NCBI GenBank assembly: GCA_030613245.1 | Contig: JAUWMI010000001.1 | Location: 62,001 to 126,000, forward strand | Direction: 5' to 3' | DNA length: 64,000 nt | Origin: Candidatus Sumerlaeota bacterium | GTDB taxonomy: Bacteria; Sumerlaeota; Sumerlaeia; MWCT01; JAUWMI01 | Part shown: in pieces, positions 7,269-41,716 of the stretch | Layout of the letters: every line of letters starts with the position of its first letter | Position numbering within the stretch: position 1 is the first letter of the stretch | Translations under genes and position numbers: made by a program | Notes under the pieces: model-generated | What the model was told of the DNA's origin: nothing | Databases searched by the model: none | The model's input: the letters and a program-made list of their open reading frames with translations, nothing else

Positions 7269-8231
7269 GTGATACCACAAGTGCGCATGTGTGTATGCCG
7301 CTGGCAATGGGTGGCGGTCCTCGCGCTCTTAAGCATATGGAGCAGCTGGGCTCCTTTCATCGCCCATGGCTACGACATCATACAAATTGAGCCGCTCTTT
7401 GACATTTCTGGGCCAACCACTGCACCGTTGAATCAACCAACGGATGTCATCACAGGGCGTGGTGGCAACATTTACGTTCTTGATGGCGTTGAAAATCGGG
7501 TTGCGGTCTTTGACAGTACAGGGCGCTTCCTCTTTCACTTTGGCCGTGCGGGCGCTGCGCCCGGCGAGTTCAACCAGCCGGTCGGGATAGGCGCAGATCA
7601 GAGCGGCACCATATACGTGGCCGACACTGGTAACCATCGTGTCCAGTGGTTCTCCGGTGATGGGCGGTTTCTGGGGGAGATGATACTTACGAGCGAAGGA
7701 GTAGATGTTCCGCCTGATCCAACTGACGTGACGATCTCACCATTCACCGGCCATTGTTACGTCGTGGATAATGACAACCACCGAATTCTTATCTATCGCA
7801 AGAGCGGAGAGTTCTATGGTGAATTTGGCGGGCATGGCGAGGAAGTTGGCTATTTTCGGTATCCTGCGACACTGGCGATTGATGAGTCAGGTGACGTATA
7901 CGTAGTGGATGTCATTAATGCACGGATAAATGTGTTTAATCCTATCGGGCGGTATCCGCGGTTCATCGGAGAATGGGGGATCAATCCGGGCAAGTTGTTC
8001 CGGCCCAAAGGGATTGCCCTTGGCAGCCAGAAGCGCGTGTTTGTGAGCGATAGCTATGTTGGATATGTACAGGTGTTTAGCACTGAGGGAGATTTTCTGG
8101 GAATTCTTGGCACGTCATCTGACAAGGCAATGAAATTTAAGACGCCTACGAGTCTTCACGTTGATGCGATGAACAGGCTGTATGTCGTGGAGACGCTGGC
8201 AAATCGGGCACGGGTCTTTCGGTTCAAATGA
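7269..8231 (+). CDS. Secreted NHL-repeat beta-propeller protein
   Basis: 320 residues starting at GTG 7269, chosen because GGGAGG lies five bases upstream. A signal peptide is followed by mature sequence from about residue 35 (GYDII). At least five NHL blades can be seen (for example YVLDGVENRVAVF and YVADTGNHRVQWF). There is no lipobox, unlike the NHL genes at 310 and 11302, so the protein is probably soluble in the periplasm or surface-associated. Its stop overlaps the start of the 24-haem gene (ATGA, 8228-8231), so the two products are made together. The role is unknown; a structural partner of the large cytochrome is a reasonable inference. Confidence 0.8.
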   Translation: MIPQVRMCVCRWQWVAVLALLSIWSSWAPFIAHGYDIIQIEPLFDISGPTTAPLNQPTDVITGRGGNIYVLDGVENRVAVFDSTGRFLFHFGRAGAAPGEFNQPVGIGADQSGTIYVADTGNHRVQWFSGDGRFLGEMILTSEGVDVPPDPTDVTISPFTGHCYVVDNDNHRILIYRKSGEFYGEFGGHGEEVGYFRYPATLAIDESGDVYVVDVINARINVFNPIGRYPRFIGEWGINPGKLFRPKGIALGSQKRVFVSDSYVGYVQVFSTEGDFLGILGTSSDKAMKFKTPTSLHVDAMNRLYVVETLANRARVFRFK

Positions 8232-11200
8232 GTGACTTACGGGCAGGAGAAGCATGGTCAAGGAGGAGCAGGAGGCAGGCGGCGCGCTGCGTGGTTGGAC
8301 TATTGCTTGTGCTCGCGGTCATGACTCTTGGGAGACCGGCAAGCGCGATTCTGCAAATGTCGCCTGGCAAGGAATGCGCCACGTGTCATATCATGTGGGT
8401 GGATGCGTTTCGCAAGGGAGAAGAGACATTGATTCCCTGGGGTGGGGAGCAAACGCTGCGTGAATCTCGCCGTGGCGAAGAGAGTTCGGAACTCATGTGC
8501 TATAGCTGCCACGACGGCTACGTGCGCGATTCGCGACTTCAAGCGTGGTCTTACTACCAGCATCCTACAAAAAATGGCACACTGTATTGCGGCACGTGCC
8601 ATACGCCGCATAGCGGCAGTGTCACTGAGCCGGTTGTCATGGAAGAAAGCTCGTTTCTTCGCGTGGTGGGCGGTGCTAGCGAACTATGCGTCGAGTGTCA
8701 TGATGATAAAATTGCCAGTGATGACGTTTCAAATCATCCGATTGGAGCAAGAGACGTCGGCGTACACAGGCAGTCGTCCGACGGCGCGCCTGCAGATCTT
8801 TTATCGGAAGGGCAGGACCCGCAGCGCGAACAAAGCCGCGTGGGCTGTGAGTCGTGTCACCAGATGCATGGCGCCCGCCATGATGCACTTATCCGGCTTG
8901 CTGCGACGGGTGAGACAATATTTGGCTCGCCGCTGTGCGAGGAGTGCCATAGTGCGGAAGATGCCAGATACAGCCTCGGTCAGTATTCGCACCCTGTGGG
9001 TGCGGAAGCTGAAATGCCTTCCGGAGCACCCGTGATGTTTTCTAATGGTTTCTGGCCGAGCTATGGAAAAGCAGGAAGCCTGAATTGTCTGAGCTGTCAT
9101 GCGGTACATGATGGGTTGGAGGGAACTGCTCTGCTGGCAGAGACGCTCGAGGAGGAACAACTTTGCCTGGAGTGCCATCCGAAGGTATCAACCGTTTCAA
9201 GCACGAAACATGATCTAACATCTGGCGATCTCTCGACGCAAGAAATCTCCGACAATACGTGCGGCTTCTGCCATCGTGCTCATAAGGGTTATGGGCCGTT
9301 CATGTGGGCACAGACGCTCGGTGGTCAACTGGATCTAGCGTCGCAGCTCTGTGCGAGCTGCCATGCGAATGATGAAAAGCCCCTGACGCCTATGCCAGGA
9401 GCGCATTCGCATCCGGTCAACGTCACTCCGTCAGTTACGATGCGTCGTAGTGTTCAACATGGAGCTGACCCAAATCGTGCTTCACCATCAGAGCAGCCGT
9501 CTATTTTCCCTTTCTATACGAGTAATCTTGAGGAGAACGAGAAAACAGGGAATGTCGTATGTCTCACGTGCCATGATCCACATGGAGGTGTAGCGACAAC
9601 AACATCTGGGGCAAACCATTTGTCCCGGGAGAAGTTTCTGCGCGTAGGAGTGGAGAAAATATCAGACATTTGCCAGTATTGTCATGAAGATGTGTTTGAT
9701 GCGATTTCGGGCACAGAACATGACCTTCTGATTACAGCACCGACTGAACGAAACTTGATGGACCAAAGTGTAGATGAAGGAGGCTTGTGCTCGCCTTGTC
9801 ACGTTGTGCATCGTGGGGTTGCGCCAGCGCTCTGGGCCAAGGCTCTTCCTCAGACGGCCCACGACGCAGTGACTCTAATGTGCAATAGTTGTCATAATTC
9901 AGAGGGCTGCGCCGCAGCGAAGCTGTTTGATGATCTGGTTCATGAACCGCGCCGGGGTGGACCGAGGACAACCTCCGGTGCACTGCTGCCTGTGTACACT
10001 TTTGATGGGGAAAAGTCATCCGAGGGATACGTCACCTGCCTGAGCTGCCATGATCCACATCGCTTTTCACCCACTGCGGGGGCGCAGAATCCACAGGCAA
10101 ATGTGGAAGGGGATGGATCGAATAGTTTCTTACGCATGCGGAGTGACGGAGACGCACCGCTGTGCCAGGGCTGCCACGCAAAGCAGGCAATGCTGCTGAA
10201 TACGCAACACGATCTTAGAGTGATGGCACTAGATGTACGGAATTCCCGAGGGCAACGTGCAGCGGATTCAGGGGTGTGCCTTGTGTGTCATAATTTGTAT
10301 GCCTCCGGTCGCGGTGAGAAGGCATGGGCGCGCACCCTTGATACTGGCTGGCCGGACAGCGCTGCCCTCTGCCTGAGCTGTCATCAGGATGAATCTGTTG
10401 TTCACAAGAGGCTGAATCCTGACACCTCACATCCCATGGAAGTAAAGCCATCGCCAGGCGGCAGTCCGATCATGTTGGCGCTGAGAAACGGTGAGCAGCA
10501 GACCATTCCGCTTATAGAAGAGAAGCTCTACTGTACGAGTTGCCATGATGCGCACCGCTACAATCCTGTTAGCGATGCGAAGCAATTTAGCCCGGGCATT
10601 GCAGCTGGGTTTTTCTTGAGGCTGCTTCCGGGAACACATGAAGGGTTATGTGCCCAGTGTCACCCGGGCGAGCAGCTGGTGATCGGAACGGATCATGATC
10701 TCTCGGTGACAGCACCCGACGAGACTAATCGCGCAGGCCTTCGCACAGTTGAAGGCGGCGTGTGTAGCGCGTGCCACGTTATGCATCCGGGTGTGGACGA
10801 CCGGCCGGTTGCCCTTACTCGGCTATACCTATGGGCAAAGTCGTTAGACGGATTGCCGCAGAGGCCGAGTGCGCTTTGTCTGAGCTGTCATAGAGAAGGC
10901 GGATGTGCGGCGCACAAGGTGCCGCAGTTACTCGAGCATCCGACAACCGTTCGTGTGGAATTTCCTAGTGCGATCGAATCAATTCTCCAGTATTCGAAGG
11001 TTATTGTATATGATGACGAGGGTCGGATCAGTACGGAGGGTATGATTTCGTGCGGGTCGTGCCACGATGCGCATCGTTGGGACATTGACGAATCCCGGTC
11101 TGGCTCGGGCAAGAATCCCGAGGGTACTGCGGTCACAAGTTTTCTTCATACGTGGAGCTTCCAGCTGTTTTGCAAGAATTGCCACGGGGCACAGGCACTG

Positions 11201-32265: not shown

Positions 32266-32709
32266 CTATTTTGCAAGCTCATACCAGCCAGTTGCCTTCA
32301 GATAATCCCCATCCTTGATACGGTACCGGAATTTCATGCTGCTTCCTTTGCTCAACTTAACATAAAATACATAGCGGAATTTCACGAACTTGTTGTCTAG
32401 CAAGAACTCCTCTCTTTTCAGCGTTTTGCGCGCCCCGCGTCCCTCGAACCGCATTATGGCAAGATACGTGACATAAGCGGTTTCATAGTCCTCTTCCTTG
32501 ATCTCAAGCTCACTACCTGCGGGCAACCGTGTGAAGGTTGTGTATTCCCGCATCTCGCATCCGTGCAGGATCGTGCCCACGCGCTTACCGTCGACATAGA
32601 CGCTAGGGCAGTTCGGCTCTTTGCCTTGCCGCGCGAGTGCCAGGAAGGCCATAAGGCAAATCCCGATTGCAAGAACAAACAAGATTTTAGACTGCTTTAT
32701 TCGATTCAT
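32266..32709 (-). CDS. Exported phage protein of unknown function, lysogenic-operon copy
   Basis: 147 residues with a strong ribosome site (GGGAGGGATAG before ATG). The N-terminus is a signal peptide or anchor (basic, then FVLAIGICLMAFLALA). The mature part has two cysteines in CPSVYVDGKRVG ... GCEMREYTTFTRLP, then EDYETAY and a C-terminal MKFRYRIKDGDYLKATGWYE. The gene at 38907 encodes a clear paralogue with the same blocks. I do not recognise the family. It lies directly downstream of the repressor on the same strand, so it is probably expressed in the lysogen and may change the host envelope (lysogenic conversion). Function is inference only. Confidence 0.8.
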   Translation of the reverse strand: MNRIKQSKILFVLAIGICLMAFLALARQGKEPNCPSVYVDGKRVGTILHGCEMREYTTFTRLPAGSELEIKEEDYETAYVTYLAIMRFEGRGARKTLKREEFLLDNKFVKFRYVFYVKLSKGSSMKFRYRIKDGDYLKATGWYELAK

Positions 32710-32756: not shown

Positions 32757-33524
32757 TCAATCCGGGGACCAGAAGACGAGGATTACGCGGCCCAGGATCT
32801 GGACGTCCGGGCCGACCGGAATCGGTGCAAAGTCAGGATTGATCGATGTAAGAAGCATTTTCCGTGCCTGAATCACCAGCCGTTTTATAAGACATTCCTC
32901 TTCAATTTTTGCAACAACCAATTTCCTCCTCAATAACCCAGGTTCCGTCTGGCTCAGGTCCACAATACATATGGAGCCTTCGGGCATAGTCGGAGCCATG
33001 CTTTCGCCTTTGAGAATCAAGGCGGCCAGTTTGTGCTTCCTGGACCTGGAAGGGAGCCCGGCCAGAGGCCAGACAATGCGAGTCTTTATCTTATCATCCA
33101 TGGCAGTTGGAGTCCCGGCGCCGACGGGTGAGGCCATGAACGGTATGGAGACTACCGGGCTTTCATGAACTTGAGGCGATAACGTGACCCTGTGCTTTCT
33201 GCGACGTGGGATGCGAATGATATAAGCATCGCCAGAGACGGTGACTTCAGGGGCGGTCTCGGCAACCGCCCCAGGCTGTGACTGAGCCTGCCTTTCCTTT
33301 GGGCCCTCGCCATAGAGAAGCCAGCCTATATTAATGTTAAAGGCGTCCGAGATAGCCTGCAGGAGCTTCCGGCTGGGTGGCGCGGCGCTTCGCTCGACTT
33401 TACTGAGGTGATTCGGAGTAATGCCAAGCTGTTTTGCAGATAGCTCCTGGCTGAGGTGTCCCCTGGCTTCTCGAATTCTTCTGCCTACTGATTTAAGGGT
33501 ATCCTTCATTCCCGAAACACCCAC
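32757..33524 (-). CDS. Phage repressor, HTH plus S24 self-cleaving peptidase domain
   Basis: 255 residues from GTG 33524, which has GGGGA upstream; ATG 33509 is an alternative. Residues about 12-75 form an XRE-type helix-turn-helix (LSAKQLGITPNHLSKVE). A linker is followed by a LexA/CI-like peptidase domain: cleavage site Ala-Gly in ASPVGAGTP, catalytic serine in LKGESMAP and a lysine in ECLIKRLV. Such repressors hold the prophage silent and are cleaved during RecA-dependent SOS induction, unlike Mu c, which is controlled by Clp. Induction should therefore depend on DNA damage. It diverges from the Ner-like gene across a shared control region. Confidence 0.88.
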   Translation of the reverse strand: MGVSGMKDTLKSVGRRIREARGHLSQELSAKQLGITPNHLSKVERSAAPPSRKLLQAISDAFNINIGWLLYGEGPKERQAQSQPGAVAETAPEVTVSGDAYIIRIPRRRKHRVTLSPQVHESPVVSIPFMASPVGAGTPTAMDDKIKTRIVWPLAGLPSRSRKHKLAALILKGESMAPTMPEGSICIVDLSQTEPGLLRRKLVVAKIEEECLIKRLVIQARKMLLTSINPDFAPIPVGPDVQILGRVILVFWSPD

Positions 33525-33608: not shown

Positions 33609-33668
33609 ATGGATTCATACATCATGCGTCAAGGCGAAATCAAGAGAAAAAGCAGGAGAAGTCGAGAA

Positions 33669-33905
33669 ATGAGGCAGACGAAGGCGAAGGCAGCTCTGAA
33701 GAAGGCGGGAGTCAGTCAGGCAGACATTGCTCGAATGCTGGGGATTAACAGGCCAATAGTCTGCGACGCGGTAAAGGAAGGCAAGAGCTGCGTTATCGGC
33801 AGTAGGCTTTACCAGGCCAGGGCAAAGATTTGCGAGGCAACGGGGAAGAAGATGGAGGAGCTCTGGCCGGTGGGGAAAAGGAACCATCGTTCTGCGGCGA
33901 AATAA
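33669..33905 (+). CDS. Ner-like small HTH regulator
   Basis: 78 residues from ATG 33669, chosen because AGGAG sits ten bases upstream; longer in-frame starts at 33609 and 33624 lack ribosome sites. The helix-turn-helix is VSQADIARMLGINRPIVCDAV, with GINRP and a conserved second helix as in Ner and SfsB-type regulators. In Mu, Ner is the first early protein and shuts down the repressor and early promoters. Position, size and orientation here match that role. The C-terminus is basic. Alternative: a Cro-like repressor of different ancestry. Confidence 0.75.
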   Translation: MRQTKAKAALKKAGVSQADIARMLGINRPIVCDAVKEGKSCVIGSRLYQARAKICEATGKKMEELWPVGKRNHRSAAK

Positions 33906-33906
33906 A

Positions 33907-33926
33907 GGGCAATTCACGAATTGCCC
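33907..33926. promoter_or_regulatory. Perfect dyad between the Ner-like and nuclease genes
   Basis: GGGCAATTC (33907-33915) and GAATTGCCC (33918-33926) are perfect inverted repeats separated by two bases. It begins at the stop codon of the Ner-like gene. With a two-base loop it is more likely a protein-binding site than an RNA hairpin. Confidence 0.45.
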
Positions 33927-33944: not shown

Positions 33945-34580
33945 ATGAAGAGACAATTCCTCAATGTGCTTAAAGAGAATGGAGTCAGTGCCCGTGATGT
34001 TTTAATGGGACTGGGCATTCAGTCATTAACCAGAATTGAGATAAGACGGATTGCCGAGGGCATTGATCCGACGCCGATAGAAGCGCGGAAGATACTGAAG
34101 GCCCTGGGGCTTCCAGTAAGGCTTGCCAGTAAATGCAGGCTGCGTAGGCCTGCGAGCCAGTACAGGAGCCATGCGGAGCGACGGTTCGCAATCAAAATGC
34201 GGCTGCGCGGGTTGACGATGATACCACAACCGCGGGCGTTCAAGGTTGGAGTGACAACCTGGACGCCCGATTTTTATTGTCCGGAGCTGGACATTTACTA
34301 TGAAGTCGTGGGCACTAGCCAGGCCTGGTCGCAGAGCAGGGAGAAGATCCAGGCAGTGAGGGCGGCATATTCGAAGATACGGATCAACGTTGTCAATGCC
34401 AGGGGCCTGGAGCTAAGAGGGACGCCAAACAGAATGCAGGCCGGAGCAGCCCGAAAGGCCAGGAAGGCACTCCTGGTACTGAATGCTTTTGGGATCAAGA
34501 AGGACGAGATGCCGGCAGTCCTGGCAGAAGCAAGCAGGCTGGTACAGCGCAAGCTGATTACTCAAATGGTTGCAAAATGA
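33945..34580 (+). CDS. Putative PD-(D/E)XK nuclease-fold protein with N-terminal DNA-binding region
   Basis: About 211 residues from ATG 33945. Residues 1-65 are helical and basic (VSARDVLMGLGIQSLTRIE; TPIEARKILKALG), like a DNA-binding HTH. Residues about 75-165 resemble the core of VSR/DUF559-type nucleases: HAERRFAIKMR with a possible first acidic residue, TPDFYCPELDIYYEVVG with Asp and Glu in the order expected for PD-(D/E)XK, then KIQAVRAAYSKIRINVVNA. The usual Lys after the second acidic residue is Val here, so catalysis is uncertain. It sits directly before the transposase gene, recalling TnsA beside TnsB in Tn7. A nuclease partner in transposition is inference. Confidence 0.6.
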   Translation: MKRQFLNVLKENGVSARDVLMGLGIQSLTRIEIRRIAEGIDPTPIEARKILKALGLPVRLASKCRLRRPASQYRSHAERRFAIKMRLRGLTMIPQPRAFKVGVTTWTPDFYCPELDIYYEVVGTSQAWSQSREKIQAVRAAYSKIRINVVNARGLELRGTPNRMQAGAARKARKALLVLNAFGIKKDEMPAVLAEASRLVQRKLITQMVAK

Positions 34581-34632
34581 TTGGTGCATTTATTGGTGCA
34601 TTTATTGGTGCAAAAGGGAATATATTGGTGCA
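34581..34632. repeat. TTGGTGCA iterons upstream of the transposase gene
   Basis: Four exact TTGGTGCA octamers start at 34581, 34593, 34605 and 34625. The first three form perfect 12-base tandem units (ATTGGTGCATTT), close to helical repeat. A degenerate TGGTTGCA precedes them. They lie between the nuclease stop and the transposase start. They could bind the transposase (like the Mu internal enhancer), the Ner-like protein or a regulator. They are too short and few for a CRISPR. Confidence 0.7.
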
Positions 34633-34666: not shown

Positions 34667-36712
34667 ATGGGAAATGATCGAGAGGTCTGGCTGAACATAA
34701 AAGATGCTGCACTAATTCATCATAGGCATGAAAAGACCATATTCCGAAGGATGCAAGCTGGGCAGTTTGTGATAAGATGGGTTGCTTCTCAGGGATGCAA
34801 AGGGGCGAAGATAGAGGTTGCGCTCTCGTCCCTTCCCGAGCTGATCCAGGAGCGATACTGGCGGCAGAGGTGTCCGAAGTTATTCGAAGGGAAAGATACC
34901 ACCTGGATGATGCGGGGAAGCAAAAAGAAGCACGAGACCGCGGGCTTGCGGAAAGACCTGCTCGAGAAGCTGAACGACGAATTGAACAACAGGGACGGCA
35001 GGTCGAAGACGGAAATCATCGAAGGGTTCGTGCATAAATACAACGCAGCGGAGATCGACGAGCGGATCCTGGCGATCCTGGGACCAAGAACCGTGCGTAC
35101 GTTTAATCGCTGGCGTCGCGAAGATCGCGACTATGGCATGGAGGGCCTCGTGCCGGGTTGGACTTCAAAGACGTTCGACGAACTTCCGATAGACGAGAAG
35201 GTGCTGCTCCATTCCTTATGGCTCAATGAGAACAGACCGTCGGTCGCGTTCGTATACCGCAAGTACAAGGAAGAGGGCTTTGATACGCTCACCCTCGCGC
35301 GCGTGCGCGCGTACCTTAATAGGATTCCCGACGCAGTGAAGTGCAGATACCGCGAAGGCAAGAAGGCGTACAAGGACCGCTTCGGGCAATACATTGAACG
35401 CGATTATTCGAAGGTGCGGGCGAACGAGATCTGGGTCGGGGATCATTGTCAGCTCGATTTCGCAATCGAAGGCTTCAACGGCAAGGCGCTTTTCCCATGG
35501 ATCACGGTATGGATGGACATTCGGAGTCGCAAGGTGATGGGCTTCTGCATCCATCCCAGTCCATGCACGGAGACGATCGTGGCGTCATTCAGGTCCGCGG
35601 CGCTGAAGCACGGACTGCCGGAGCAGGTGCTGATCGACAACGGGAAGGACTTCTCGTCGCGGCGGTTCAGCGGAGGGCGGAAGCGGTCCAGGCTGCGGAT
35701 CGATAAGCGGAAGATGACCAGTCTGCTTCACGGGCTGAAGGTGGAAGCGCGCTTCTGCAATCCCTACAATCCCAGGTCGAAGCCGGTCGAGCGGTTCTTC
35801 AGAACGATGAAGGACGACTTCGAAAAAGGGTGGGACACCTATCGCGGCAGGTACAGGGGCAAGGAGCGGCCGGAAGGTCTGGAGGCGGTGCTGAAGGATC
35901 CGAGCAGATTGCCGGGGCTGCCGGAAGTGGATGCGGCATTGCAAGCATGGATCGAGGAATACCATGCGCGTCCGCACCGCGGGCAGGCGATGGACGGGAA
36001 GAGCCCGGACCAGGTATGGCGGGAGACGCTAGGCGAGAAGCGAGAAGTCGATCCGGAGCGGCTGAGGCTGGCGATGATGGTTGCCGAGGACCGCATGATC
36101 CGCAGGAACGGGATAAGCATCTTCGGGCAGGTCTACTGGGACGAGGCGATGTGGCGATACAAAGGCAAGCGGGTACGCGTGCGATACGACGTTCATGACC
36201 TCGGCCGCATCGACGTTTACGACCAGGAAGAAAACAGGTATCTATTCACGGCCGAGTGTAGGCCGATGGCGCAATGGCGGGCGTGCCAGGACGACATCAA
36301 ACGGGCGCAGAAGGAAGGGCGGGAAGAGAGGAAACAAGTGGAGGAATTTGCGAACGTGGTACACCGCGGCCGTCGTGGCATGCAACCGGCGGCGCGGGCG
36401 ATACAGACGAAGCGAGATTCGTTAATCAGTAGACAGGAAGAAAATCCGGGAATGCCTGCACGCCGACCCGCCTGCAGGAGCCTTGCGGCGGGTAGGACAA
36501 GTTCTTTGGCAGGCGGGGAGGACGACGGGAATGAACTTCACAATCTGGTCGCGCAGCGAAAGGGATTATCTGGAAGCACAGCGGAAAGCGGAAGCGACGA
36601 TGGAAGCAGACGAAGACCAATCTTCAAGTATTACTGGGAGAAGGAAGACTGGGAGCGGCGCGAGCGAGCCCGGGCCGACTCGGACGGCGAAGAGACTGGC
36701 GAGATTCATTAG
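34667..36712 (+). CDS. MuA-type DDE transposase
   Basis: 681 residues; MuA has 663. The N-terminal winged helix (LNIKDAALIHHRHEKTIFRRM) matches the Mu end-binding domain. The catalytic rve core has Asp259 (WVGDHCQLD), Asp324 (VLIDNGKDF) and Glu375 (SKPVERFFR), with spacings near those of MuA (269, 336, 392). A beta-barrel follows (RRNGISIFG ... KRVRVRYD). The last 120 residues are low-complexity and charged, include codons derived from a GC-rich repeat (36465-36518) and overlap the MuB frame. The enzyme should bind both prophage ends and perform strand transfer for integration and replicative transposition. A ribosome site GAGG precedes ATG. Confidence 0.95.
   Translation: MGNDREVWLNIKDAALIHHRHEKTIFRRMQAGQFVIRWVASQGCKGAKIEVALSSLPELIQERYWRQRCPKLFEGKDTTWMMRGSKKKHETAGLRKDLLEKLNDELNNRDGRSKTEIIEGFVHKYNAAEIDERILAILGPRTVRTFNRWRREDRDYGMEGLVPGWTSKTFDELPIDEKVLLHSLWLNENRPSVAFVYRKYKEEGFDTLTLARVRAYLNRIPDAVKCRYREGKKAYKDRFGQYIERDYSKVRANEIWVGDHCQLDFAIEGFNGKALFPWITVWMDIRSRKVMGFCIHPSPCTETIVASFRSAALKHGLPEQVLIDNGKDFSSRRFSGGRKRSRLRIDKRKMTSLLHGLKVEARFCNPYNPRSKPVERFFRTMKDDFEKGWDTYRGRYRGKERPEGLEAVLKDPSRLPGLPEVDAALQAWIEEYHARPHRGQAMDGKSPDQVWRETLGEKREVDPERLRLAMMVAEDRMIRRNGISIFGQVYWDEAMWRYKGKRVRVRYDVHDLGRIDVYDQEENRYLFTAECRPMAQWRACQDDIKRAQKEGREERKQVEEFANVVHRGRRGMQPAARAIQTKRDSLISRQEENPGMPARRPACRSLAAGRTSSLAGGEDDGNELHNLVAQRKGLSGSTAESGSDDGSRRRPIFKYYWEKEDWERRERARADSDGEETGEIH
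36465..36518. repeat. GC-rich REP-like repeat inside the transposase 3' region
   Basis: The block begins GACCCGCCTGCAGGAG, continues CCTTGCGGCGGG and ends with GTTCTTTGGCAGGCGGG. It shares these segments, partly inverted, with a repeat at 52873-52937. It is read in frame within the transposase tail. It looks like a dispersed chromosomal repeat that entered the phage. Confidence 0.55.
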
Positions 36713-37556
36713 CGATCGCAACCTGCGGCAGGCGGCGGTTGCACGCTCGCTCGGCGTAAGCGGTGCGCGGCTGTCGCAGTATTTGTCCGGTACGTACAAG
36801 GGCGATGTCGAGTCGCTCGACACGCGGGCAGAAGTTTATCTCGCGCGCGAGGAACAGAAACTTCGCGAGCCGCTAACCAGGCTCAAGTTCCGCGCAACGT
36901 CGGCTTACAGAAAAATGGAAGAAACCCTGGACACGGCATATATCGAAGGCGACATCGCCGTGGTAGTAGGCAGCTCGGGCGTGGGCAAGACGGTCGGCGC
37001 GGAGCATTATTGTCTCGAGCATCCGGATTGCATTTTCATCGATTGCGATCCCTCGTTCACGGTGCGCGTGCTCGTGAATGAGATCCTGCACAAGCTGGGG
37101 ACGCAACCGCGCGGCACGATTCACGCTGCGATGGAGCAGATCATACAGCGCCTGGCCGGCACGGGGCGGATGATCGTGGTCGACGAGGCGGAACATCTTT
37201 CGTATCGTTCGCTTGAGATCATACGCAGAATTCATGACAAGACGGAAATAGGCTTGTGCCTTTGCGGAATGCAGCGGCTGATCGAGAACTTGCGCGGCGG
37301 CGGGCAGTATCAGCAGCTTTATAGCCGCGTCGGGGTATTCTGCGACCTTCGCAAACTCGAGCCGAAGGACATCGAGACGATACTCGATCAGGTGAAGACG
37401 TCGAAAGAGACGAAGCGCGCGCTGCTGGCATCGGCGCAAGGGAATGCGCGCAGGTTGCAGAAGCTGCTCAAGCGGACGGAACGCCTGGCGAAAATCAACG
37501 GGACCGAGATGACGCCGGAGATCGTGCAGAAGGCGGAAGGGCTTTTGATGGTATGA
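36600..37556 (+). CDS. MuB-type AAA+ ATPase, target-DNA activator
   Basis: About 318 residues from ATG 36600; the frame is open to 36483 but a longer form overlaps the transposase by over 180 bases. An N-terminal HTH (LRQAAVARSLGVSGARLSQYL) and the AAA+ core (Walker A GSSGVGKTV, Walker B MIVVDEAEHL) match MuB. A C-terminal helical part (GNARRLQKLLKRTERLA) is also MuB-like. MuB binds target DNA, stimulates MuA and gives target immunity. Even with the 36600 start the gene overlaps the transposase by 113 bases, and a later non-ATG start is possible. Confidence 0.9.
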   Translation: MEADEDQSSSITGRRKTGSGASEPGPTRTAKRLARFISDRNLRQAAVARSLGVSGARLSQYLSGTYKGDVESLDTRAEVYLAREEQKLREPLTRLKFRATSAYRKMEETLDTAYIEGDIAVVVGSSGVGKTVGAEHYCLEHPDCIFIDCDPSFTVRVLVNEILHKLGTQPRGTIHAAMEQIIQRLAGTGRMIVVDEAEHLSYRSLEIIRRIHDKTEIGLCLCGMQRLIENLRGGGQYQQLYSRVGVFCDLRKLEPKDIETILDQVKTSKETKRALLASAQGNARRLQKLLKRTERLAKINGTEMTPEIVQKAEGLLMV

Positions 37557-38887: not shown

Positions 38888-38906
38888 GGGAATGGAGGCG
38901 GTAGCT

Positions 38907-39359
38907 ATGAAAAAAAGCGCATTGATCATCTTCTCTCTGCTGGTGCTCGTGGCGGCAGTGTGTGTGGCCGTGTCGGGTATGAGAAGGGAAGCGGGCGACT
39001 GCCCGAACGTCTACGTCGACGGGAAGCGGGTCGGCGTCACTCTCAAAGATTGCCAGATGCGCGAGTATACGACCTTCACGCGCCTGCCCGAAGGAAGCAG
39101 CGTGGAGGTAAAGGGCGAGGATTACGAGACGGCGTACTTCAGAACTCTGGCGGTAGTGCGGCTCAAAAGGGACGCCCGGATCAAAGTCGGCAACGAATAC
39201 AAGCATAAGTGGCAGGTGGTAATCAGGGAGTGGTGCGTGAAGGACCATACTCCACGGGCATACATACGGCTGAAGAAGGGCGAAAGCCTGAAGTTCCGCG
39301 AACGGATCAAGGACGGCTACTACCTCATGGCAACTGGATGGTATGAGCCGTCGAGATAG
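38907..39359 (+). CDS. Exported phage protein, second paralogue
   Basis: About 150 residues from ATG 38907 (GGAGGCGG five bases upstream; an upstream ATG at 38892 is part of that site). A signal anchor (KKSALIIFSLLVLVAAVCVAV) is followed by CPNVYVDGKRVG, DCQMREYTTFTRLPEGS, GEDYETAY and a C-terminal LKFRERIKDGYYLMATGWYE. These blocks match the leftward gene at 32266 almost residue for residue, with the middle region diverged. The two cysteines may form a disulphide in the periplasm. It lies in the early rightward operon, so the two copies are probably expressed at different times. Family unknown. Confidence 0.8.
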   Translation: MKKSALIIFSLLVLVAAVCVAVSGMRREAGDCPNVYVDGKRVGVTLKDCQMREYTTFTRLPEGSSVEVKGEDYETAYFRTLAVVRLKRDARIKVGNEYKHKWQVVIREWCVKDHTPRAYIRLKKGESLKFRERIKDGYYLMATGWYEPSR

Positions 39360-39403: not shown

Positions 39404-39946
39404 ATGGCAAGAGCAAAGCCTAGTAGGGACCCGGTCCTGCAAAGCTGGCAGCAAGTCGACAATTCAATGCGACGGATAGGCGAGATCACCGCCACTCTGG
39501 ATAAGGCCAATGCAGATCTCAATAAGAGAATTCAGACGATTCGTGAAAGCGTCGAGAGGACATACGCAGATTTGGCGAGGGAGAAACTGCGCCTGGAAAA
39601 GGACATTGAGGAATTCACCTGCTCGAGGCGGGACGAGTTCAAAGAGAAAAAAAGCAAGCCGCTCACGTTCGGGATCGTCTCCTTCAGGATCGTGCGGAAG
39701 CTGCTCGTCAAGAGCAACGCATTCACCGTGGAAGCCATCAAGAGAATACTCGGCCTCAATGCCCTGAAATATCTGCACGTCCAGGAAAAACCCAACAAGG
39801 AGACGCTTGCCGAGCTGGAGGACCAGGAGCTCAGGAATCTCGGCGTCATTCGCAAAATTACGGACGACTTCGGATACAAGCTGAACTGGCAGAATCTGCA
39901 GGAAGTCCTGGCGGAGAAGGCCGAGACGGCAGCGGGTAAAAAGTAG
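39404..39946 (+). CDS. Mu Gam-like host-nuclease inhibitor
   Basis: 180 residues; Mu Gam has 174. An N-terminal coiled coil (ITATLDKANADLNKRIQTI) is followed by the Gam core motif KPLTFGIVSFR. Gam binds double-stranded ends, is related to bacterial Ku and protects phage DNA from RecBCD-type nucleases. A ribosome site (AGGAG) lies in a spacer with a short periodic repeat (CACTGAGACACAGAGG). The position between the transposition and middle genes is as in Mu. Confidence 0.88.
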   Translation: MARAKPSRDPVLQSWQQVDNSMRRIGEITATLDKANADLNKRIQTIRESVERTYADLAREKLRLEKDIEEFTCSRRDEFKEKKSKPLTFGIVSFRIVRKLLVKSNAFTVEAIKRILGLNALKYLHVQEKPNKETLAELEDQELRNLGVIRKITDDFGYKLNWQNLQEVLAEKAETAAGKK

Positions 39947-40459: not shown

Positions 40460-40803
40460 CTCTGCAAAGAGAGAATCAGCTCAAGCATGCATGGATCGAT
40501 CAGGACGAGGAGAACTGCTGGGCATTGAAGAGCAAGCCCCGGGGACTGAAGTCTGGCGGTAGGATTTATTTCGTATGGCAGGACCAGGTTGTCGCCCTCG
40601 GCACGATCACGCGGATCCAGCCCATCGAGATGGACGGCGACGGGATTTTCATGGACGAGGACGAAGAGGCGGAGTCGGTGAACGGCTATCCTTCAGGCGC
40701 ACGATTCCTGGTATTTTTCAATGGCGTTATTCCCGGGCCGGGGACTGAGCATCATCACAAAAACTTCGAGCGCCACTATTGTCTGGAGGAATTGCATGAT
40801 TGA
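40429..40803 (+). CDS. Phage protein, possible PUA-like fold
   Basis: 124 residues, acidic. The segment LKSGGRIYFVWQDQVVALGTITRI resembles the strand pattern of ASCH/EVE-type PUA-like domains, but this is a weak match. The last eight bases overlap the radical SAM gene start, and a ribosome-like GGTGG precedes its ATG. Function unknown. Confidence 0.5.
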   Translation: MEEARQEITVTLQRENQLKHAWIDQDEENCWALKSKPRGLKSGGRIYFVWQDQVVALGTITRIQPIEMDGDGIFMDEDEEAESVNGYPSGARFLVFFNGVIPGPGTEHHHKNFERHYCLEELHD

Positions 40804-41716
40804 GATCAGACATGCGAAGAGATCGAGCTTCATAAGCCGCAAAAAGTTCGGCTGCGGCGAGGGGCCGGAGCAGATCATCTGCCCGCCGTTCTGGCAGGGC
40901 GTGCCGTTGGCGGTGGGCTGTCCGCTCGGTTGCTCTTATTGCTACCTCAAGCTGACGCTGCGGCACCGCAAAGGCAGGATCCTCGTATACAACAATCCGG
41001 AGGATCTGAAGATCCAGCTGCTCGAATTCGCGAAGCACCATCCAGGTGCAGTAGTGAATTTCGGCGAGACGGCCGACAGCGTGGCAATGGAAGAAGAGAC
41101 GGGATTCCTGCGTTTGCTTCGGGCAGCGATGTCGCAGTTAAAGGAGCAGGGTTTGGATCTGCATCCGCTATTGATCACGAAGCTAACCTATCCCATTGCC
41201 AGAATTTCCAAGGATCCAGATGGTACCATCTTCTCCTGGTCAATTACTTCACCGCAGACGCACTTCCTTTTTGAATGCGAGCACGTTATCAGAGGACTTG
41301 TAGTTCCCAGTATTCCGGAATTGAGATTGACCAATGCGCGTCTCATGATGACGATGGGATATCCCCTAAGGCTACGAATCGATCCAATCATACCACCACT
41401 TGAGGATTATAATAACATATTGGCGGATATTCGATTGCTCAAGCCGGAGCGAGTGACGCTTGGCACGCCACGGTTTTTCAAAGGCTGGCCGAACTTCGCG
41501 GACGAATTTGGCAGAGCGCTTTATTATAAGACGACCAGGGTGGACGGCGCGGACGGAAGGCGTCGTCTGCCATTTATGCAAAGAGTCGAGATTTACACGA
41601 AGTTCAAGAAGGCATTAGAGGGCGTTTCGGAGATTGCGCTCTGCAAGGAGACGCGGGCGATGTGGCAGGCCGTCGGCCTCGACTGGCGCCGCCCGAAATG
41701 CAATTGCATACCGTGA
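40796..41716 (+). CDS. Radical SAM protein, spore photoproduct lyase-like
   Basis: 306 residues from ATG 40796, which overlaps the upstream gene; this start precedes all conserved sequence. The radical SAM cluster motif is CPLGCSYC at Cys42, Cys46 and Cys49 (CX3CX2C) in GCPLGCSYCYL. Later blocks (NFGETADS, TKLTYPIARI, ITSPQTHFLFE, RIDPIIPPLEDY) follow the layout of SplB-family proteins, which open UV-induced thymine dimers with S-adenosylmethionine. The C-terminus ends KCNCIP, with possible extra cysteine ligands. Its presence in a Mu-like prophage suggests DNA-repair or DNA-modification cargo. Substrate is not shown by sequence. Confidence 0.75.
   Translation: MIEIRHAKRSSFISRKKFGCGEGPEQIICPPFWQGVPLAVGCPLGCSYCYLKLTLRHRKGRILVYNNPEDLKIQLLEFAKHHPGAVVNFGETADSVAMEEETGFLRLLRAAMSQLKEQGLDLHPLLITKLTYPIARISKDPDGTIFSWSITSPQTHFLFECEHVIRGLVVPSIPELRLTNARLMMTMGYPLRLRIDPIIPPLEDYNNILADIRLLKPERVTLGTPRFFKGWPNFADEFGRALYYKTTRVDGADGRRRLPFMQRVEIYTKFKKALEGVSEIALCKETRAMWQAVGLDWRRPKCNCIP

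Follow-up and report, generated by a model that had tools for sequence, protein, structure and literature searches.

Computational analysis established the fold, the family, and the conserved acidic triad of a 211-aa protein encoded next to the transposase gene of a Mu-like prophage: it has a PD-(D/E)XK nuclease core of the T7 endonuclease I/Bax1 type, in which the hallmark lysine is replaced by valine. We put at about even the chance that the phage uses it early as a structure-selective endonuclease on branched DNA. A dedicated, TnsA-like obligate partnership with the transposase, which an earlier note on this DNA had suggested, is unsupported, since none of 85 other loci with MuA-type transposases carries the nuclease and other loci with the nuclease have no MuA-type gene nearby. 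A nuclease gene next to a transposase gene thus need not be a TnsA-type partner.

Gene and prophage setting

The intact open reading frame runs from an ATG at position 33945 to a stop codon at 34580 of the window (our term for the whole 64-kb stretch of DNA that was analyzed), with a TTG at 33921 as a possible alternative start. As the earlier note had it, the gene lies directly upstream of the MuA-type transposase gene of a Mu-like prophage. A small Ner-like HTH gene precedes it, the transposase gene starts 86 bp 3′ of it on the same strand, and a MuB-type ATPase gene comes next. The prophage as a whole consists of a divergent CI/S24 repressor, the Ner-like gene, the nuclease-like gene, transposase A, the B ATPase, Gam, a GemA-like protein, Mu F, Mu I protease, capsid E, and tape measure. 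The features of the early region are as follows.

32757-33524, minus strand: CI-type repressor (HTH plus S24 peptidase)
33609-33905, plus strand: small Ner/repressor-like HTH protein (phrog_769, 8e-6)
33945-34580, plus strand: PD-(D/E)XK nuclease-like protein, 211 aa (homologues, profile, AlphaFold2, and Foldseek)
34580-34632, plus strand: four ATTGGTGCA repeats with spacing 12, 12, 20, a candidate operator between the nuclease stop codon and the transposase start
34667-36712, plus strand: MuA-type transposase (phrog_310, 1.5e-93; Mu-transpos_C, 1.6e-18)
36483-37556, plus strand: MuB-type ATPase, true start probably later (phrog_296, 1e-79)
39404-39946, plus strand: Mu Gam-like protein (PF07352, 1.4e-23)

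The four ATTGGTGCA repeats compare with 0.6 expected, and no further copies were found in the 64-kb window. We also considered the repeats as a transposase end site and rejected this, because, with no copy elsewhere in the window, the repeats cannot be tied to the prophage ends; the right end of the prophage lies beyond the window. In the short stretch that separates the Ner-like gene from the nuclease gene, direct reading of the sequence showed a perfect palindrome, GGGCAATTC-AC-GAATTGCCC, at 33907-33926.

Family and fold of the nuclease core

When the protein was searched by itself, it gave weak matches only, all at about aa 70 to 150 and nearly all to nucleases. PHROG returned endonuclease and Holliday-junction resolvase families (E = 0.006 to 0.06), a PDB sequence search returned Bax1 (E = 0.05 to 0.6; the better match, 8gy8, bears the name of a translation factor in the file of sequences, but its entry title identifies it as Bax1), and tblastn returned phage resolvases and a restriction endonuclease. 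The best single-protein family match was the NCBIfam Bax1 model (NF053694; 7.5e-5 over the nuclease domain), in which aa 71 to 136 aligned with profile positions 258 to 328 of 342 at 21.9 bits, far below the equivalog cutoff of 500. The full Bax1 architecture is not present, the other Bax1 domains being absent from the window protein. PF05367 (Phage_endo_I) was not listed for the window protein alone at E values up to 1 in Pfam, and the homologues L007, L008, and L016 gave weak PF05367 matches only.

Direct protein queries of viral contigs, genome contigs, the host class, and the host phylum found no relatives. A scan with the degenerate DNA pattern PDF[YF]...YEVVG recovered three phage homologues, L007, L008 (whose nuclease gene is also that of L013), and L009, with phmmer E values of 2.5e-14, 3e-21, and 3e-16, each against a tiny database. 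The recovery of these homologues implies that the nuclease-like reading frame is not a product of chance. A second pattern, YEVVGTxQA, yielded two extra loci, L123 and L124, which do not encode the nuclease family. No near relative of the prophage itself was found in the searches of contigs, host class, and host phylum, nor was there an empty-site neighbor for comparison.

Searched against the PDB, a profile built from the window protein and its three homologues picked out T7 endonuclease I at 1.4e-6. For a 17-sequence alignment, the corresponding values were 1.3e-17 for T7 endonuclease I and 2.6e-6 for Bax1; because this larger alignment includes a bona fide Phage_endo_I member (L025), the four-sequence figure is the cleaner test. 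Both profiles show homology to T7 endonuclease I (PF05367).

We then modeled the protein with AlphaFold2 from the 17-sequence alignment. The overall pLDDT was 79.5, with values above 90 at about aa 71 to 150, and the predicted elements were a helix at 76-87, strands at 99-101, 104-106, 110-112, and 117-121, a helix at 125-141, and a strand at 147-150. In Foldseek searches of the PDB, the best matches were Bax1 (probability 1.0) and T7 endonuclease I (0.85), none passing an E value of 0.001. Among viral models, the top match was an endonuclease of Escherichia virus LS3 and phage endonuclease I proteins were among the leading matches; proteins named for homing and VSR endonucleases were also returned. 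The earlier note's call of a PD-(D/E)XK-like fold was therefore borne out, the fold search having returned Bax1 and T7 endonuclease I and not an unrelated fold. We regard the nuclease fold and family as well supported, with very little room for doubt. Two parts of the protein are as follows.

33945-34124, plus strand: N-terminal helical, HTH-like region (aa 1 to 60)
34158-34424, plus strand: nuclease core (aa 72 to 160)

For the DNA-binding N terminus that the earlier note had proposed, the model shows four short helices (pLDDT 56 to 75) and HTH_3 matches at E = 0.08, which weakly suggest such a function.

Two known nucleases stand closest to the core. The Bax1/DUF790 nuclease domain (NF053694, PF05626; we take DUF790 to be the family of Bax1) is both the best single-protein family match and the best PDB fold match. 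T7 endonuclease I, a domain-swapped dimer that cleaves four-way junctions, resembles the window protein in its core fold, its E...PD...E order, an alignment along the length of the core, and its phage origin. The window protein differs in being larger, in having an extra N-terminal region, in falling below the Pfam threshold alone, and in having no equivalent of K67 of T7 endonuclease I.

Active site and the EVV subgroup

We aligned 30 distinct family members and located the active-site motifs in the window protein, whose residues 108 to 123 read PDFYCPELDIYYEVVG.

34176-34178, plus strand: E78, motif I acid, at the position of T7 endonuclease I E20 and Bax1 E275 by alignment; invariant in the 30 members
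34266-34271, plus strand: P108-D109, motif II; invariant in the 30 members
34302-34310, plus strand: E120-V121-V122, motif III, with the acid kept and valine in place of the catalytic lysine; E-x-K in most members, EVV in four
34320-34346, plus strand: Q126...R132-x-K134, in the helix of motif IV; shared by the members of the EVV subgroup

The acids of the PD-(D/E)XK superfamily (motif I E, motif II PD, and motif III E) are all present, E120 being shared by 28 of the 30 members, so that the earlier note was right about the Asp and Glu residues as well as the fold; it overlooked the absence of the usual lysine. Valine takes the place of this lysine in the window protein and in L007, L008, and L009, while the large majority of the family keeps E-x-K. 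In the same four proteins, the motif IV helix is lengthened and reads GT-x-QA-[WFY]...R-x-K.

The EVV sequences are a rare subgroup, with only four known. Two related IMG/VR phage proteins, L016 and L017, have EVKK and cores 38 to 42% identical to that of the window protein; unlike it, they keep E-x-K and do not have the QA[WFY] lengthening, and L016 lies beside a phage early region. In a tree of the 30 cores, the EVV four adjoin L016 and L017, but the node uniting the four has negligible support (0.02), and we therefore do not claim that they are monophyletic.

The missing motif III lysine is not decisive against membership of the superfamily, in which such variation is known (PMC1913061). 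In PD-(D/E)XK families that lack it, a Lys or Arg in motif IV is thought to substitute, DUF790 being a named example whose lysine has reportedly moved to motif IV (PMC1913061). Loss of the lysine alone thus does not mean loss of activity. By analogy, the positive charge may have moved into the motif IV helix (Q126/R132/K134) in the EVV subgroup. Catalytic activity of the window protein is a prediction from its sequence, against which the valine in it and its three nearest EVV relatives counts. A rare T7 endonuclease I/Bax1 subgroup that has lost the hallmark lysine and kept the acids is a direct test case for the migration of active-site residues.

Possible roles of the nuclease in the phage

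The reading that we favor, at about even probability as stated above, is that the protein is an early-expressed endonuclease combining a PD-(D/E)XK core with a short DNA-binding-like region at its N terminus. E78, D109, and E120 would bind the metal, the next helix (Q126/R132/K134) would supply the missing positive charge, and the enzyme would cut branched or forked DNA arising from phage replication, recombination, or transposition. It would be a general DNA-metabolism or junction nuclease occupying a variable early slot of a Mu-like phage and not a transposase subunit. T7 endonuclease I is a Holliday-junction resolvase (PMC9547003), and the AfBax1 nuclease, whose acids are E275, D305, and E318, contributes to cutting a single arm of forked DNA (PMC7293015).

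The relatives are mostly freestanding phage genes, and their DNA-binding modules vary: besides the weak HTH-like N terminus of the window protein, there is a C-terminal HTH in L007, a weak RHH-like module in L009, a Myb-like module in L037, and NUMOD3 in L022. Such differing modules, together with the sporadic distribution of the family, would also be expected of a homing-type endonuclease, whose DNA-binding module targets a site and whose gene passes from phage to phage through cleavage of alleles that lack it. The core is indeed found in large DnaE-type proteins of Chloroflexota metagenome-assembled genomes and of one from Liptonbacteria (L030 to L036), where it keeps E-x-K and lies embedded in inteins; the Pfam architecture scan, which covered L030 only, showed the intein there. 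In these proteins, the T7 endonuclease I-like domain is likely a homing endonuclease, and junction specificity for this reason does not follow from the fold. NUMOD3 in L022 and the fold matches named homing endonucleases point in the same direction. However, the window gene lies outside any intron, intein, or split gene, and in two relatives (L008/L013 and L016) the nuclease gene opens the rightward early region, with a divergently oriented repressor or HTH gene at its side, a place similar to that in the window and unlike random insertion. We consider a homing function for the window protein unlikely, at perhaps one chance in several.

In L018, an endonuclease I-like gene (7926-8282) lies directly 5′ of a phage gene (8282-11032) that resembles the one for DNA polymerase III alpha and apparently bears an intein. 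Taken with the bacterial DnaE inteins that contain the same nuclease domain, this arrangement may reflect collaborative homing.

Slightly less likely again is a catalytically inactive nuclease reused as a Cro-like DNA-binding regulator of the early region, acting at the nearby repeats. Loss of the motif III lysine, the gain of DNA-binding modules, the position near a repressor in the window and in L013 and L016, and the four ATTGGTGCA repeats directly 3′ of the gene would all suit such a regulator. Yet a dead enzyme would need neither E78, D109, and E120, which are kept, nor the conserved Q, R, and K of motif IV, and migration of the lysine is known in the superfamily (PMC1913061).

The third possibility, a nuclease coupled to the transposase, appears improbable. 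Such an enzyme would remove flanking host DNA or cleave the 5′ strands of the donor at the ends of the phage, being TnsA-like or replacing the MuA flap nuclease. TnsA, which cuts the 5′ strands at the ends of Tn7, resembles the window protein in belonging to the PD-(D/E)XK superfamily and in having its gene adjoin that of a TnsB/MuA-class DDE transposase. The adjacent, same-strand position 86 bp upstream of the transposase gene favors coupling, as do the facts that flap removal is a real step in Mu and that strand-transfer intermediates are branched DNA. Flap removal in Mu has been ascribed to a cryptic MuA nuclease, and as of 2012 it had not been reproduced in vitro (PMC3325207). We assign an equally low probability to the specific version in which a T7 endonuclease I-like subgroup with a lost lysine and interchangeable DNA-binding modules was recruited to process branched transposition intermediates, by flap removal or donor 5′ cleavage, as a separate protein doing the job of the cryptic MuA nuclease. 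If the nuclease did act on Mu-type intermediates, flap removal would be testable with a separate enzyme.

The comparative data argue against such coupling, though an association peculiar to this one phage is conceivable. We searched with the 17-sequence profile 85 other loci with MuA-type transposases (80 from viral contigs, 3 from the annotated phages BalMu-1, phiRTG5, and KS10, and 2 from the host class, redundancy not removed) and found the nuclease family in none; in 73 of them, over 1.5 kb of sequence precedes the transposase frame. In ten loci scanned, the slot upstream of the transposase held BRO/anti-repressor proteins, HTH proteins, phrog_1748 coiled-coil proteins, or integrase-like genes. 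Conversely, among 52 nuclease loci, a MuA-type gene was near the nuclease in only 3, all of them the window's own, and the fetched flanks of the other ~49 had none. Kinship with TnsA likewise failed to emerge: the TnsA family PF08722 was not matched at E values up to 1 in Pfam, TnsA was absent from the PDB sequence search and from the top 50 PDB folds, and one TnsA-N-annotated phage protein stood at rank 49 of the viral fold library. Moreover, the repeat array separates the nuclease gene from the transposase gene, and a search of the literature on similar transposase-linked nucleases found nothing specific.

Least probable, to the point of being marginal, is a host-takeover or superinfection nuclease degrading host or competing DNA; the early position of the gene and the known part of T7 endonuclease I in host DNA breakdown speak for it, but there is no specific evidence and no confident defense-family match (best PADLOC E = 0.018).

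Two further features of the prophage deserve mention. A pair of clear paralogues encoding small secreted-looking proteins, at 32266-32709 (minus strand) and 38892-39359 (plus strand), flanks the early region on both sides; they have in common CP.VYVDGKRVG...MREYTTFTRLP.GS...YETAY. At 40721-41716, the prophage carries a spore-photoproduct-lyase-like radical SAM gene, and genes with a CxxxCxYCY-type radical-SAM-like motif occur in the phages of all three EVV relatives (L007, 25-723, minus strand; L008, 5527-5799; L009, 3378-4118, minus strand), a co-occurrence with EVV nucleases that may be coincidence.
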